In this document: positions 4,486-17,556 of the stretch, one piece after another | Layout of the letters: the number at the start of each line of letters is the position of its first letter | How positions within the stretch are numbered: position 1 is the first letter of the stretch | IMG/VR virus record: IMGVR_UViG_3300046012_000249 | Coordinates: 1-20,554 of that record | Source of the DNA: a virus | Direction: 5' to 3' (one strand) | Length of the DNA stretch: 20,554 bases | The notes under the pieces: generated by a model | What the model was told of the DNA's origin: nothing | Seen by the model: only the letters and a program-made list of their open reading frames with translations | Databases searched by the model: none | Position numbers and translations under genes: made by a program

Positions 4486-5022
4486 CTATTCAAGTTTGGT
4501 CTTGAGGGAGATGCCAGCGCCTTTGGGGTGATAGGTTTCAGGGCGCGACACACCGTCGATCTTTCCTGTCTTGATTTGCTGCTCAATCGCGCGAGTGCGT
4601 GAGGCGTAGTACTCTTGATTTTCCGCGTACCACTCGTTGCGAATTTTCATCAGATGCAGAGTAAGAGGCCGTCCGCTTTCGTGCGAGCCTGAGATACGAC
4701 TCACGCGCTCGCCGGCACTATCGCTATCGGAGCCAGTACGATTGCTGAGCTTGACTTCGCCACGGGTTACAAACTCGTAGCCGTTTTCTTCCGCGTCCTC
4801 GAGACGACCCGGGTAGTCTGCGATCCAGTGGAGGTGATAGCCCGGAATCGACGTGACGCCGAGCCGAAGCTTACCTACACCGAACGGGGTGCGAGTACGC
4901 GGGATGCCTTGTTCCATTTCTGGATTACGTTCGCGCGGATTCGTGACTTCCGATACAGCTGCGCGCGAGGGAATACGTTCGCTCGATTGTTCCATGCCTT
5001 CATTGCTGTCTGTGATTTTCAT
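4486..5022 (-). CDS. Conserved-type phage head-region protein, unknown role
   Basis: A 178-aa hydrophilic protein. The start at 5020-5022 is set by AGGAG with a 6-nt spacer, immediately after the stop of the scaffold-like gene; the longer frame is an extension into that gene. The central GYHLHWIADYPGRLEDAEEN (about 68-87) followed by GYEFVTRGEV, then a C-terminal helix MKIRNEWYAENQEYY, matches a protein type I know from the scaffold-capsid interval of other phages. The N-terminal 50 residues look disordered. Function is unknown; head assembly is the best guess from position. Confidence 0.75.
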   Translation of the reverse strand: MKITDSNEGMEQSSERIPSRAAVSEVTNPRERNPEMEQGIPRTRTPFGVGKLRLGVTSIPGYHLHWIADYPGRLEDAEENGYEFVTRGEVKLSNRTGSDSDSAGERVSRISGSHESGRPLTLHLMKIRNEWYAENQEYYASRTRAIEQQIKTGKIDGVSRPETYHPKGAGISLKTKLE

Positions 5023-11742: not shown

Positions 11743-11828
11743 ATTCCTGGGGCATTGCCGGTCATTCGCGCCGGGCCGCGCGCCGGACCACAGCCACGGC
11801 CGACAGAAGCGGGGCCAGATCACTAAAC

Positions 11829-11841
11829 ACCCCTAGTATTA
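11829..11841 (-). repeat. TAAWMCTAGGGGT motif, copy 1
   Basis: On the minus strand this reads TAATACTAGGGGT, matching 12 of 13 bases of the plus-strand TAATCCTAGGGGT at 17246-17258 and 11 of 13 of the minus-strand TAAAACTAGGGGT at 17237-17225. It points toward the head operon. A degenerate neighbour, CCCTAG, is at 11855-11860. It is a candidate phage-specific promoter or regulator site. Confidence 0.5.
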
Positions 11842-12103
11842 CGCAAAAATAAATCCCTAGCTTCTCTGGGCAATTCCGGCCAAGCGCCATCTCTGGGCTA
11901 TATCGCGCGCGCGGGTGCGAGCTTTTTGCCCCCCACCGCCTCCAAGGGGCACTGGACTAGGGCCAGGCGCGGGGGCGCAGGCTCGGTGGCAGGGGCGCGT
12001 AGGCTTACAAACCGTCGGGGTTGTAACAATGGCTTGCATGTGTCGCGCTATGCACTAGACTCTAATCACCGGGCCACAATGGCGCGGGCAAACGGAGAAC
12101 GCA

Positions 12104-12342: not shown

Positions 12343-12538
12343 GTAGTTGGCGATAGGTTGGAATGGGGGGAGGATGGCTGGCGTGGTGGTGGTGTGTGTA
12401 GGGGTGTGTATATGTATGAAGTAAAAAAAAAATATAGAAACATATACACTACTACAACTCTCTCCACTCCACCCACTCCTTCCACCGACCACACGCGACG
12501 GACGCGGGACCGGGCCAGCTATGTGAACTGTGTGAACT
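12319..12538. repeat. 220-bp element with perfect 20-bp inverted repeats
   Basis: AGTTCACACAGTTCACATAG (12319-12338) is the exact reverse complement of 12519-12538, and similarity continues outward with few mismatches to about 12313 and 12544. Each arm is itself two 9-bp units of AGTTCACA type. The interior is G-rich on its left (12357-12405) and C-rich, almost G-free, on its right (12449-12486). The apex has GTGTATATG (12406-12414) pairing with CATATACAC (12441-12449) around a run of ten A (12423-12432). The whole can fold into one long imperfect hairpin. Candidate roles are a replication origin, a MITE-like element or a regulatory cruciform. There is no gene in 12296-12666. Confidence 0.75.
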
Positions 12539-13414: not shown

Positions 13415-13990
13415 ATGTCTGACGTTACTCAAGAGCAAGTGCAAGAAGGCGAAACGGCAACTGTAGCAGCAGTGCCAAAGAAAATGAAAATGACCGAGAC
13501 GCACCGTGAAGGCTCGGTAGTGGTTTTTAATGCGAAGTTCGCGAACGGCGAAGAGCACGAGTTTACGCTCGATCCGTCGCATCCGCTGTATCACTCGTTC
13601 GCTGTGCATGGTGCGCGCCAGAAACTGAGCGACGCAGGCTCAACCAAAAAGACGGCCGATGATGCTGCGAAAGCGGTCGGTGGTCTGATCGAAGCGCTCG
13701 AAGCGGGTGAGTGGTCGCAGCGTGGTACGGGTGGAGACGGAGAGCCTACGGGTGGCTTGCTCGCCAAGGCACTGGCTAACTTGTACGGCAAGCCGTTGTC
13801 GGAAGTTCAAACCTATCTTGCAGGCTTGTCGGACGAGCCGAAAGAACGGACCAAGATCCACAATGCACTGCGCGCGCAAGCGGAAGTCGCGGCAGAGATC
13901 GAACGCATCCGGCCGCCGAAGAAGGAGCGCAAGGTTAATGACGCGGCAGCCAAAGCGGCAGCCGAGGCACTCGCGGGATTGGCGAACTAG
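13415..13990 (+). CDS. Hypothetical phage protein
   Basis: A 191-aa protein. Residues about 33-75 form a beta-type domain around FNAKFANGEEHEFTLDPS. Next come an Ala/Gly-rich helix, a segment LLAKALANLYGKPLSEVQTY, and a Lys/Arg/Ala-rich helical C-terminus (PPKKERKVNDAAAKAAAEAL). The layout resembles a small domain with a basic tail, possibly nucleic-acid binding, but no named family was recognised. GGAGAGG precedes the ATG. It is followed by a 22-nt repeat and a GC-rich hairpin, so the transcript may end here. Confidence 0.7.
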   Translation: MSDVTQEQVQEGETATVAAVPKKMKMTETHREGSVVVFNAKFANGEEHEFTLDPSHPLYHSFAVHGARQKLSDAGSTKKTADDAAKAVGGLIEALEAGEWSQRGTGGDGEPTGGLLAKALANLYGKPLSEVQTYLAGLSDEPKERTKIHNALRAQAEVAAEIERIRPPKKERKVNDAAAKAAAEALAGLAN

Positions 13991-15063: not shown

Positions 15064-15116
15064 CGAGAAACCCCGCTCGCGCGAGTTTATCGTGTCCGCT
15101 TGCGCGAGAGTTCCAA

Positions 15117-15148
15117 GCCCTTGGTGGCAAACGCCAAGGGTGCTTTTT
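15117..15148 (+). terminator. Intrinsic terminator T1
   Basis: CCCTTGG (15118-15124) pairs with CCAAGGG (15134-15140), extended to about 9 bp with a GCAAA loop, followed by TGC and TTTTT (15144-15148). It ends the 14083-15063 gene group. Confidence 0.85.
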
Positions 15149-15149
15149 C

Positions 15150-15225
15150 AAGCCTGCTCCGGCCTCGTGCATGCGAGGTAGCACTCTCCGACACGCGAAA
15201 GCGTGGCTTTAAACCGAGCAGGCTT
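15150..15225 (+). ncRNA. Candidate three-way-junction RNA between two terminators
   Basis: AAGCCTGCTC (15150-15159) pairs perfectly with GAGCAGGCTT (15216-15225). Inside lie two hairpins: CCTCG with CGAGG (15063+100 to 15178, that is 15163-15167 with 15174-15178), and CACGC with GCGTG (15192-15196 with 15201-15205) capped by a GAAA tetraloop. The 76-nt fold is not a tRNA (no 7-nt T loop, no CCA, no anticodon arm). It lies directly after T1 and before T2. It may be a stable small RNA from read-through, or the sensor part of a termination-controlled leader for the tailspike genes. Confidence 0.5.
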
Positions 15226-15246
15226 TAACAAGCATCAACGAGCAGC

Positions 15247-15267
15247 GCCCCTTTCGAGGGGCTTTTT
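15247..15267 (+). terminator. Intrinsic terminator T2 upstream of the tailspike group
   Basis: GCCCCT and AGGGGC form a 6-bp stem with a stabilising TTCG loop, followed by TTTTT (15263-15267). It ends only 20 nt before the next start codon, leaving no room for a promoter between. Expression of the following genes must therefore come from read-through or antitermination. Confidence 0.85.
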
Positions 15268-15286
15268 CGCGTTTATGGAGCCCAAG

Positions 15287-15517
15287 ATGCCGCGAGACCC
15301 TAGCAAAGTGATTCCAGCTGTAATGGACGTGCCTGTGCTGTACAGTACGAAAACGTGCTATGTGCAATTGCCTGGCCACGCGAACATGGTCCAGATGCAT
15401 TCGGTCATACGAGTGTATGGCGCGTACGAATCGCCCTCGGTCGCGTTGTTCATCTCGCGCGAGCACGCAGGCGAGTATGCCAACTACCTGACTGTGAATC
15501 GAACCGAAATCCTCTAA
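15287..15517 (+). CDS. Small hypothetical protein
   Basis: A 76-aa protein. The ATG at 15287 is preferred because GGAG lies 6 nt upstream; an ATG at 15275 overlaps that site. The sequence is beta-rich (AVMDVPVLYSTKTCYVQLPG) with a conserved-looking ALFISREHAGEYANYL. No family recognised. It lies just after terminator T2 and ahead of the membrane microprotein and tailspike genes. Confidence 0.62.
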   Translation: MPRDPSKVIPAVMDVPVLYSTKTCYVQLPGHANMVQMHSVIRVYGAYESPSVALFISREHAGEYANYLTVNRTEIL

Positions 15518-15638: not shown

Positions 15639-17138
15639 ATGACTACCGCCCAAGGTATTCTCGCAGACGGCACTTATGTTCCTCCGTTGCAGGGTCTAAT
15701 TCCGATTGTTACGAGCGCAGTGCCTGGACCGCTCATTACGGGCTCGCTTGGCGTGTCTGGCGAGTTTATGCATAATATCAATGTACCGGCTCTGTCCGCT
15801 TACGGCGGCGCGGGACCGGACACAGAGCTGATTGTCGCGGTGACTTGGACTTGTAACTCCAGCGCGGGGAATAAGTCCATTGCGTGCTCGATTGGCAACG
15901 TAGGCGGGAGTGTTACTTCAAACGTCTACAGCGACACGCAGACGACTAACGTCACCAACGAGTGGTTTTTTAAGATCTCCTGCCGCGGCTCGACCAAGAG
16001 CCCACTGTGCTCGGCCACGCCTTCGCTCACGTCCAACAGCTCGACTGCGGTCAAAGTCCTGACTAATATGGACATGACGCAGTCGATTTCGATTGTCTTC
16101 TTCGGGTCGGTGGCGGTTGGCACCGACTCGCTGCAGATACAGCGTTATACGGTTTATCTGTCAAACGGGCCGACGCAGAAGTTCCAGCGTTTTGGCTATG
16201 GCAAAAAGTGGTTCTGGGGCATGAATACGCATTGGGATGAGTTCACGACCGGCGGCGGACCGACCACGCCCGCGCAAGGCATTACGAACTATACCACGCT
16301 CGGCGCGACAGTCATGCGTATCACGAACGAGGGCGGGACGTCCATGAACTCGATCACGGCCGTCGCGCAGGCTCTGGTCGGGACCGCGATCAAGATGTAT
16401 TGCTGTATCGACATAGGCATACCGCTGTTTGCCGGCGCGAAGGAAAGCGACGCGTATGCAGACGGCTATCAGGCAGGCCGAAGCACGGCACTCGCTCTCG
16501 CGCCGTACGGTGTGACGGTTTACGAGTGCGGGAACGAAATGGACACGAAGGCGGGTATCAATGTCGCAGGCGACAATGGCGCGTTTCCGAGTTCGTTCTC
16601 GAACACCCTCTGGCCCTTGTTTCGCGGCGAGATTGCAGGCTGTATCGACGGAGTGCATTCGGTGCCAGGCTGCTACGCGGCGTCGAACGCGTTTACTATC
16701 TGCGGCATTGGCGCGATGGATATGTTGTACTTCGGCACCGCGCCAGATGGCTCGAGCGGCTACAAGCAACTGCGGTGGGATATCAGTGCCTTTCACAACT
16801 ACCGTCCGTATGGCCCGCTCACCGCAGTGCAGACGTACTCGGGCGGAGGCTGGGTTAATATTTACGAATATCTCCAGCGCACGTATGGCGCGCCAATCTA
16901 TATCTCGGAATTCAACGACCAAGTCGGGGATACGGACGCGCAAATTGCACTGTGGAATACGCGCGTGATGACCGAGATGTACGCCAATCGCTACAAGTAT
17001 AACATCATGGGCTGTAATATTTACGAAATGCTCGGCGGCAATCCGTGGGGAATGTTTGACTCGCCCGGCGTCCCGAACAATCCGCGCGGAACTACTGTTC
17101 AGGCCTTCATCGCGGCTAATCCCGATACCGGTCTGTAG
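15639..17138 (+). CDS. Tailspike-like protein with glycoside-hydrolase-type domain
   Basis: A 499-aa protein. Residues 1-185 form a beta-rich domain (for example SISIVFFGSVAVG) likely to attach to the virion. Residues about 190-499 look like a clan-A TIM-barrel glycosidase. They have GMNTHWDE (194-201), VMRITNEGG, YECGNE (295-300) with Glu300 as candidate acid/base, FHNY (385-388), and IYISEFND (420-427) with Glu424 as candidate nucleophile. The spacing of the N-E and I-S-E-F motifs is as expected. It would degrade a host surface polysaccharide during adsorption. AGGA precedes the ATG. It lies on the strand opposite to the head genes. The substrate is unknown; a non-virion enzyme is an alternative. 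Confidence 0.78.
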   Translation: MTTAQGILADGTYVPPLQGLIPIVTSAVPGPLITGSLGVSGEFMHNINVPALSAYGGAGPDTELIVAVTWTCNSSAGNKSIACSIGNVGGSVTSNVYSDTQTTNVTNEWFFKISCRGSTKSPLCSATPSLTSNSSTAVKVLTNMDMTQSISIVFFGSVAVGTDSLQIQRYTVYLSNGPTQKFQRFGYGKKWFWGMNTHWDEFTTGGGPTTPAQGITNYTTLGATVMRITNEGGTSMNSITAVAQALVGTAIKMYCCIDIGIPLFAGAKESDAYADGYQAGRSTALALAPYGVTVYECGNEMDTKAGINVAGDNGAFPSSFSNTLWPLFRGEIAGCIDGVHSVPGCYAASNAFTICGIGAMDMLYFGTAPDGSSGYKQLRWDISAFHNYRPYGPLTAVQTYSGGGWVNIYEYLQRTYGAPIYISEFNDQVGDTDAQIALWNTRVMTEMYANRYKYNIMGCNIYEMLGGNPWGMFDSPGVPNNPRGTTVQAFIAANPDTGL

Positions 17139-17201: not shown

Positions 17202-17273
17202 CTAGGGTTTACCCCGATATGAATACCCCTAGTTTTATGCTACTATAATCCTAGGGGTTATCCCTTATATCGG
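17202..17273. promoter_or_regulatory. Nested inverted-repeat promoter/operator
   Basis: ACCCCTAG (17225-17232) and CTAGGGGT (17251-17258) are perfect inverted repeats 18 bp apart. They are enclosed by a second pair, CCGATAT (17214-17220) and ATATCGG (17267-17273). A TATAAT -10 box (17244-17249) lies between the inner arms, pointing to the plus-strand genes at 17323. Another copy, CTAGGGTTTA, starts at 17202. A protein bound at the arms would cover the promoter. The motif is shared with 11658-11860. The 17139-17322 gap holds no gene. Confidence 0.65.
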
Positions 17274-17322
17274 AGTGCATCCTGCTCCGCACCCTAGTCA
17301 GATGGTTTTCTCGGAGAGAGCC

Positions 17323-17556
17323 ATGTTAGTTCGACTGCAGTTCATTGTCAATCTCGGCGTGTCGCAAGGTTATTACCAAGGCACGGCGCTCGCATGGCCG
17401 GAAATGAAGTACGGCAACATGCAACTCACACACGAGCCTCTCGACTCTATTGGCTACGGCAGCGAAGCTGTCGCAATCGCCGATCTCGATCGCTGGCTCG
17501 CCAAATTCCCTTGTATCACCGAAGCCGAAACTGTCGTCCTTGGAGACCTGTCATGA
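17323..17556 (+). CDS. Small hypothetical protein
   Basis: A 77-aa protein (LVRLQFIVNLGVSQGYYQG at the start), beta-rich and slightly acidic, with a C-terminal helix DLDRWLAKFP. GGAG with 6-nt spacing sets the start 49 nt after the inverted-repeat promoter. It is the first gene of a thirteen-gene overlapping cluster and shares an ATGA junction with the next. No family recognised. Confidence 0.65.
   Translation: MLVRLQFIVNLGVSQGYYQGTALAWPEMKYGNMQLTHEPLDSIGYGSEAVAIADLDRWLAKFPCITEAETVVLGDLS

Follow-up and report, generated by a model that had tools for sequence, protein, structure and literature searches.

Regulatory RNAs are known from few phages outside the model systems. At lambda sib/tI, the RNA that reads through the terminator makes an extra helix, which is impossible in the terminated RNA. 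The cuckoo RNAs of Alphaproteobacteria are bacterial anti-Shine-Dalgarno (anti-SD) sRNAs with an exposed CU-rich anti-SD motif. The c4 antisense RNA of phages P1 and P7 complements, through short unpaired segments, the ribosome-binding region of an mRNA of the same phage (PMC12197685). Retroregulation of lambda int is exerted by sib, which lies downstream of the gene (PMC5300877), and R1.1 of T7 is a 60-nt hairpin substrate of RNase III, with an asymmetric internal loop of 4/5 nt (PMC6121014). The put RNAs of HK022 (approx. 70 nt), which are located downstream of early promoters, consist of two tandem stem-loops and are conserved at the base level (PMC9378689).

The DNA analyzed in this study (the whole stretch of 20,554 bases, referred to as the window) is a virus record with minus-strand structural genes at its left and a plus-strand operon that starts at about 12.9 kb. 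A preliminary description of this DNA had reported a terminator (T1) directly adjoining a perfect 10-bp closing stem with two internal hairpins, one of them GAAA-capped, and a second terminator (T2) with a TTCG loop. Inspection of the nucleotide sequence confirmed this arrangement: T1 occupies positions 15117-15141, the stem is formed by 15150-15159 with 15216-15225, the hairpins are at 15163-15178 and 15192-15205, and T2 lies 21 nt past the 10-bp stem, with the ATG at 15288 about 20 nt further on. The features of the region are the following:

13415-13990, plus strand: marker gene (191 aa, function not assigned), which sets the syntenic position in the relatives
15076-15108, plus strand: hairpin A (CTCGCGC...GCGCGAG, long loop), located 5′ of T1 (-15.1 kcal/mol for 15077-15109)
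15117-15141, plus strand: T1, a 10-bp terminator-like hairpin followed by GCTTTTTC (-17.7 kcal/mol)
15141-15159, plus strand: 5′ strand of the closing helix P1, starting in the T1 U-tract; 17 of the 19 positions pair with 15216-15234
15163-15178, plus strand: hairpin P2 of the predicted fold, CCTCG(TGCATG)CGAGG
15184-15191, plus strand: unpaired motif CUCUCCGA between P2 and P3, the proposed antisense seed, with an SD complement at 17311
15192-15205, plus strand: hairpin P3 of the predicted fold, CACGC(GAAA)GCGTG
15216-15234, plus strand: 3′ strand of P1, whose A-rich end pairs with the T1 U-tract
15247-15262, plus strand: T2, a 6-bp terminator-like hairpin (TTCG loop, T-run), present in the window only
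15276-15517, plus strand: small downstream gene (SD GGAG at 15277, ATG at 15288; possible in-frame ATG at 15276)
17311-17325, plus strand: proposed target, i.e. the SD UCGGAGAG, perfectly complementary over 8 nt to 15184-15191, and the ATG at 17323 of the gene that opens the next operon

The junction fold exceeds chance: its minimum free energy (MFE) is -35.3 kcal/mol, compared with -23.8 ± 3.0 for shuffled sequences (z -3.8), and none of the 200 shuffles reached it. Judged by their sequences, both T1 and T2 would qualify as intrinsic terminators (a GC-rich hairpin plus a U-tract); terminator-like matches show no overall excess across 13-20.5 kb. The 10-bp stem proved to be part of a longer helix, of which it makes up the inner half. 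In its true extent, P1 is formed by 15141-15159 and 15216-15234 (17 pairs and 2 mismatches), and its outer half consists of the T1 U-tract and the A-rich strand past the junction. As P1 starts within the T1 U-tract, only a transcript extending past T1 could form it.

The earlier suggestion that the fold controls termination at T1 or T2 found no support: T1 and the junction share no contested bases, the junction is made later, and T2 is missing in the relatives. The reverse relation fits better, with read-through of T1 apparently permitting the folding, since the U-tract of T1 supplies the outer portion of P1. A terminator/antiterminator switch was also rejected, because T1, hairpin A and the junction share no bases, and therefore no mutually exclusive folds are evident.

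The relatives of the window (W in the genome labels) were collected by terminase and marker-gene searches. Five of them cover the region of the element: L002 (genome G001), L218 (G017), L219 (G018), L136/L217 (G005) and L003/L008 (G002). The marker gene shows 56-76% identity to its homologs in L002, L008 and L217, and homologs are also present in L218 and L219. Two further phages were gained with a four-member alignment of the marker gene, while a marker-gene scan of 84,980 bacterial and archaeal genomes yielded no members, and a scan with the downstream gene no further ones. Nothing comparable to the element was found in G003. A simple CTCC-junction descriptor lacked specificity, and viral contigs scanned for the DNA pattern CTTTTT-TCTCCGA-TAAAMC gave at least 120 stretches, with no new member recognized among the listed structure-ranked candidates. 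The comparison set thus comprised six genomes and one distant one, whose ORFs and SDs were called with simple rules. In the Microcystis phage Mel-JY34 (L240, 1490-1755), a marker-gene homolog is followed by GTCTCTCC, a GCCCCC...GGGGGC-ATTTTTT terminator and a possible TTGACA-like promoter. No junction was recognized after this homolog, so the operon boundary appears to be retained there without a recognized junction RNA.

In all five relatives, the non-coding stretch that follows the marker gene contains hairpin A, the T1 hairpin with a U-rich tract, and a long stem around arms. The counterpart of hairpin A is at the same position in each of them and is part of the conserved layout. An equivalent of T1 (a hairpin or a small junction followed by a U-rich tract) occurs in all six genomes, as a weaker terminator in L008, L218 and L219; in the latter two, a small three-way junction takes the place of the plain T1 hairpin. 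T2 has no counterpart in L002, L217, L008, L218 or L219, and being trapped between two terminators, as the RNA was previously described, is therefore peculiar to the window and not the conserved property.

Across the six genomes, P1 spans 15-22 positions, of which 17/19 are paired in W, 18/20 (plus one bulge) in L002, 16/17 in G005, 15/15 in G002, 21/22 in L218 and 20/22 in L219. Most of these pairs are present in the MFE fold of every genome, and a small mismatch interrupts the helix in five of them. In the interior of the G005 element, the MFE prediction gives one irregular arm. In each genome, no more than one of 200 shuffles of the syntenic region equalled its long-range stem (1/200 for the window). 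A search for U-tract-initiated stems as strong as these recovered the element in each of the six genomes, few other sites in 251 kb, and only 7 in 1.18 Mb of other terminase-related contigs. A further long-range stem of 25-27 positions, located off the element, is kept in G017 and G018 (L227 2317 and L231 15523, both on the plus strand), and is possibly another structured RNA or a coincidence of the coding region.

The divergent members were beyond MAFFT alignment of P1, and the helix was therefore compared by explicit pairing and in L218 and L219, which can be aligned by sequence. For the window and L002, which were misaligned, the RNAalifold fold was meaningless. Between L218 and L219, 12 of the 47 consensus pairs are altered on both sides with pairing kept. 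A search for covariation in related phages had been suggested in the preliminary description, and covariation together with a conserved architecture was indeed found in the six genomes. Judging from these comparisons, the fold is a conserved RNA of the transcribed strand, to which the G-U pairs in its helices point. Of the protected small RNA proposed earlier, the structured RNA is thus strongly upheld by conservation and covariation, while its stability is inferred.

The sequence common to the members is otherwise slight, apart from the strand between the two hairpins, which reads (G/C)UCUCC in four of the genomes, with UCCUCC in one more. CUCC (CTCC in the DNA) is present at this site in 5/6 genomes, while G002 has the scaffold and no motif. 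GTCTCC is also found before hairpin A in four genomes; in the loci L218 and L219 (approx. 12.5 kb each) and in positions 1-9000 of L002, the two copies within the element are its sole coding-strand occurrences. The mean probability of the motif being unpaired is 0.92 in W, 0.72 in G005 and 0.59 in L002. It is predicted to be mostly paired in L218 (0.29) and L219 (0.20), where its opening costs 4.2 and 1.2 kcal/mol, respectively.

The motif complements SDs of the phage that carries it. In W, CUCUCCGA is complementary over 8 nt to UCGGAGAG at 17311; in L002, AGUCUCCGA complements UCGGAGACU at two SDs (9 nt each); in G005, CCUCCGUA complements UACGGAGG (8 nt). The motif GUCUCCAC of L218 and L219 complements GUGGAGAC at three SDs per genome, over 9, 9 and 8 nt in L218 and 9, 8 and 8 nt in L219. 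As any CUCC can pair with any GGAG, the matching of the flanks to own SDs was tested against that to the SDs of the other phages, at first with five genomes; MW202489 was then added as a sixth.

MW202489 is a distant phage (its marker-gene homolog has 34% identity), and it was examined only after the antisense idea had been formed. It carries the motif without the junction: the gap after the marker homolog contains an 11-bp hairpin whose apical part includes AGTCTCCGA, and the SD of a gene two places downstream shows complementarity over 10 nt. Six SDs of this phage show a match of at least 8 nt (P 0.0008, random flanks). When the motifs were swapped among the genomes, the true assignment scored 18 against a mean of 7.7, and 4 of the 720 assignments, itself included, were equal to or better than the true one; the single-genome P values outside MW202489 were 0.06-0.31. 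Four of the tested genomes had already served to develop the idea, and L218 and L219 are closely related; we therefore regard as moderate the evidence that the motif, with its phage-specific flanks, complements own SDs. Enrichment of GGAGAC SDs was discarded as an explanation: at gene starts they show no special enrichment over other GGAG SDs (GGAGAA/AT/GC), and only the matching to the own motif was retained.

Some SDs are located in the loops of small hairpins, e.g. GUUG-UGGAGA-CAAC and UAUCG-UGGAGA-CGAUA. Such hairpin-borne SDs were observed at L218 4910, 6628 and 7165, at L219 4983 and 7409, and, on the minus strand, at L002 5480 and 4489. By their shape, they might be suited to a kissing interaction or to a translational repressor.

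Taken together, we tentatively favor, as a quite possible reading, that the element is a phage antisense RNA which blocks SDs, and whose scaffold is completed only by read-through of T1. RNA polymerase arriving from the upstream operon would occasionally pass T1. In the read-through RNA, the U-tract of T1 and the next bases would pair with the A-rich strand, forming P1 around the two hairpins, and the open strand between these would present an anti-SD motif of the GUCUCC type. The motif could then pair with the SDs of a few mRNAs of the same phage, lowering their translation; in the window, the gene predicted to be targeted is the one that opens the next operon (start at 17323). The RNA would accumulate either by processing of the read-through transcript or by the protection offered by P1. 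We infer that it is made and stable, binds SDs and represses them, and propose the phage's own early genes as the regulated targets. The wider claim, i.e. a new antisense family in which the seed co-evolves with a few own SDs on a read-through-completed scaffold, serving as a translational brake on early genes, is somewhat doubtful.

The main rival to the antisense model, and one that we consider rather unlikely, is a site of RNase III processing or retroregulation, in which P1 of the read-through RNA is cut. Such a cut would split the mRNAs of the two operons or, in the manner of lambda sib/tI, trigger decay of the upstream mRNA, from which the T1-terminated mRNA would escape. Enclosure of the T1 U-tract in P1 in all six genomes, with a sequence free to vary, agrees with this, as do the internal mismatch of P1 in five of the six and the motif-less G002, for which it accounts. 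Conversely, a plain hairpin would suffice for cleavage, which leaves the two arms, the CUCC motif and the SD matches unexplained, and the helix of G002 has just 15 bp. The presence in G002 of the scaffold without the motif suggests that the scaffold may have a second role, for which RNase III processing is the best candidate; antisense action and processing can both take place. We consider improbable a cis-acting leader of the small downstream gene, in which, for instance, CUCC pairs with the gene's own SD and tunes translation or mRNA stability. A small gene does follow in 5/6 genomes, its SD in L219 is a few bases past P1, and the SD GGAG at 15277 of the window can pair with CUCC. The gene at 15276-15517 has homologs in L002, L217 and L008. 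The next gene nevertheless varies (the window and L002 have the A1-type gene, whereas a small membrane-like protein is encoded in L217, L008 and L219), no alternative fold is evident, and in L218 a promoter-like site is found a few bases past P1 with no gene between, so the element is not simply a gene leader; this general role is unlikely. In L219, a small gene separates the element from the next strong promoter.

The same loci bear on the earlier statement that no promoter fits downstream of T2 and that the following genes must be reached by read-through. No sigma-70-like promoter was detected in the window between 11.5 and 15.7 kb, which agrees with the first part and, together with the small gene of L219, makes the second plausible. 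This arrangement, with a structured phage RNA of similar size placed right before T2 and no promoter beyond, would also suit a put-like antiterminator, whose nascent RNA binds the polymerase and carries it past T2 and later terminators. We hold it to be very improbable, given that the arms are enclosed by a long variable helix, that there is little sequence conservation, and that none of the relatives has T2. Even less probable is a replication or packaging signal acting at the DNA level and merely resembling an RNA fold: the inverted repeats and the fixed genomic position would suit it, but the G-U pairs keep pairing solely on the transcribed strand, and a strand-specific U-tract with a terminator-like hairpin precedes the element in 6/6 genomes. 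That T1 and T2, both good matches to intrinsic terminators, are simply a double terminator of the ordinary kind, enclosing a fold that arose by chance, is the least probable reading of all, in the face of a stem matched by at most 1/200 shuffles in each of six genomes, its covariation and the near-uniqueness of the locus. A self-cleaving ribozyme or riboswitch was rejected, as there is no permissive Rfam match and no conserved core beyond the short motif.

Several other loci of these phages were noted. The plus-strand gene at 15639-17138 (499 aa), previously labeled as tailspike, gave no PHROGs, Pfam or PDB-sequence match, which leaves the label unsupported; parts of its product look glycoside hydrolase-like by eye. 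The gene was not recognized in the intergenic gap of the relatives and may be an insertion. Before the gene at 17323, the window contains an inverted repeat (17222-17258, CCCCTAG...CCTAGGGG) around a TATAAT-like box, and a related copy, AACACCCCTAGTATTA at 11826, is present at 11826-11852; by sequence, these repeats look like the operator of a phage repressor. The equivalent promoter of L002 carries CCTAGGGTTTTATCCTA directly after the TTGACA box. Near the next operon, L002 also has, on the minus strand, a tRNA-like gene with an odd anticodon reading and a tRNA-Ile(gat) gene (4506-4581 and 1603-1676); no tRNA genes were found in the window. Sequences of the GTGTGTATGTAGTAGTTAC type, together with simple-repeat tracts, recur between divergent operons (at the record ends of L003 and L008, at about 7640-7860 in L002 and about 12394-12429 in the window), and this region is a candidate origin or promoter.

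The window matched no family of Rfam 15 at the gathering score, and with permissive E-values nothing near threshold was obtained for the window, L219, L002 or L218. The anti-hemB model (Burkholderia) scored 14.1 bits in L218 against a threshold of 49.5, which was taken as chance, and the C4 covariance model (RF01695) had no match in the window up to an E-value of 10. The element, defined comparatively and with no Rfam entry, predicts SD partners base by base for each phage. If the antisense model is true, a leak past a terminator yields an RNA that turns down other genes of the phage; if RNase III processing is true instead, the element provides a new natural example of sib-like processing that depends on read-through.

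With lambda sib, the element shares a helix (P1) that forms only in the terminator read-through RNA, in 6/6 genomes; it differs in that no upstream integrase gene was recognized, and in its interior arms and anti-SD motif. Like R1.1 of T7, it is an intercistronic stem with an interruption, located between phage genes, although it is branched, 94 nt long, with small symmetric mismatches, and placed behind a terminator-like hairpin. Like putL and putR of HK022, it is a structured phage RNA of comparable size whose operon contains terminators, but instead of tandem stem-loops it has two arms within a long closing helix. With the cuckoo RNAs it would have in common the exposed CU-rich anti-SD motif; unlike them, it is phage-encoded, and it has another fold and no Rfam match. 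As in c4, a phage-encoded structured RNA would present an unpaired complement of an own SD (15184-15191 against 17311-17318 in the window); unlike c4, its scaffold needs read-through of T1, its target is different, and several SDs match in a single genome.
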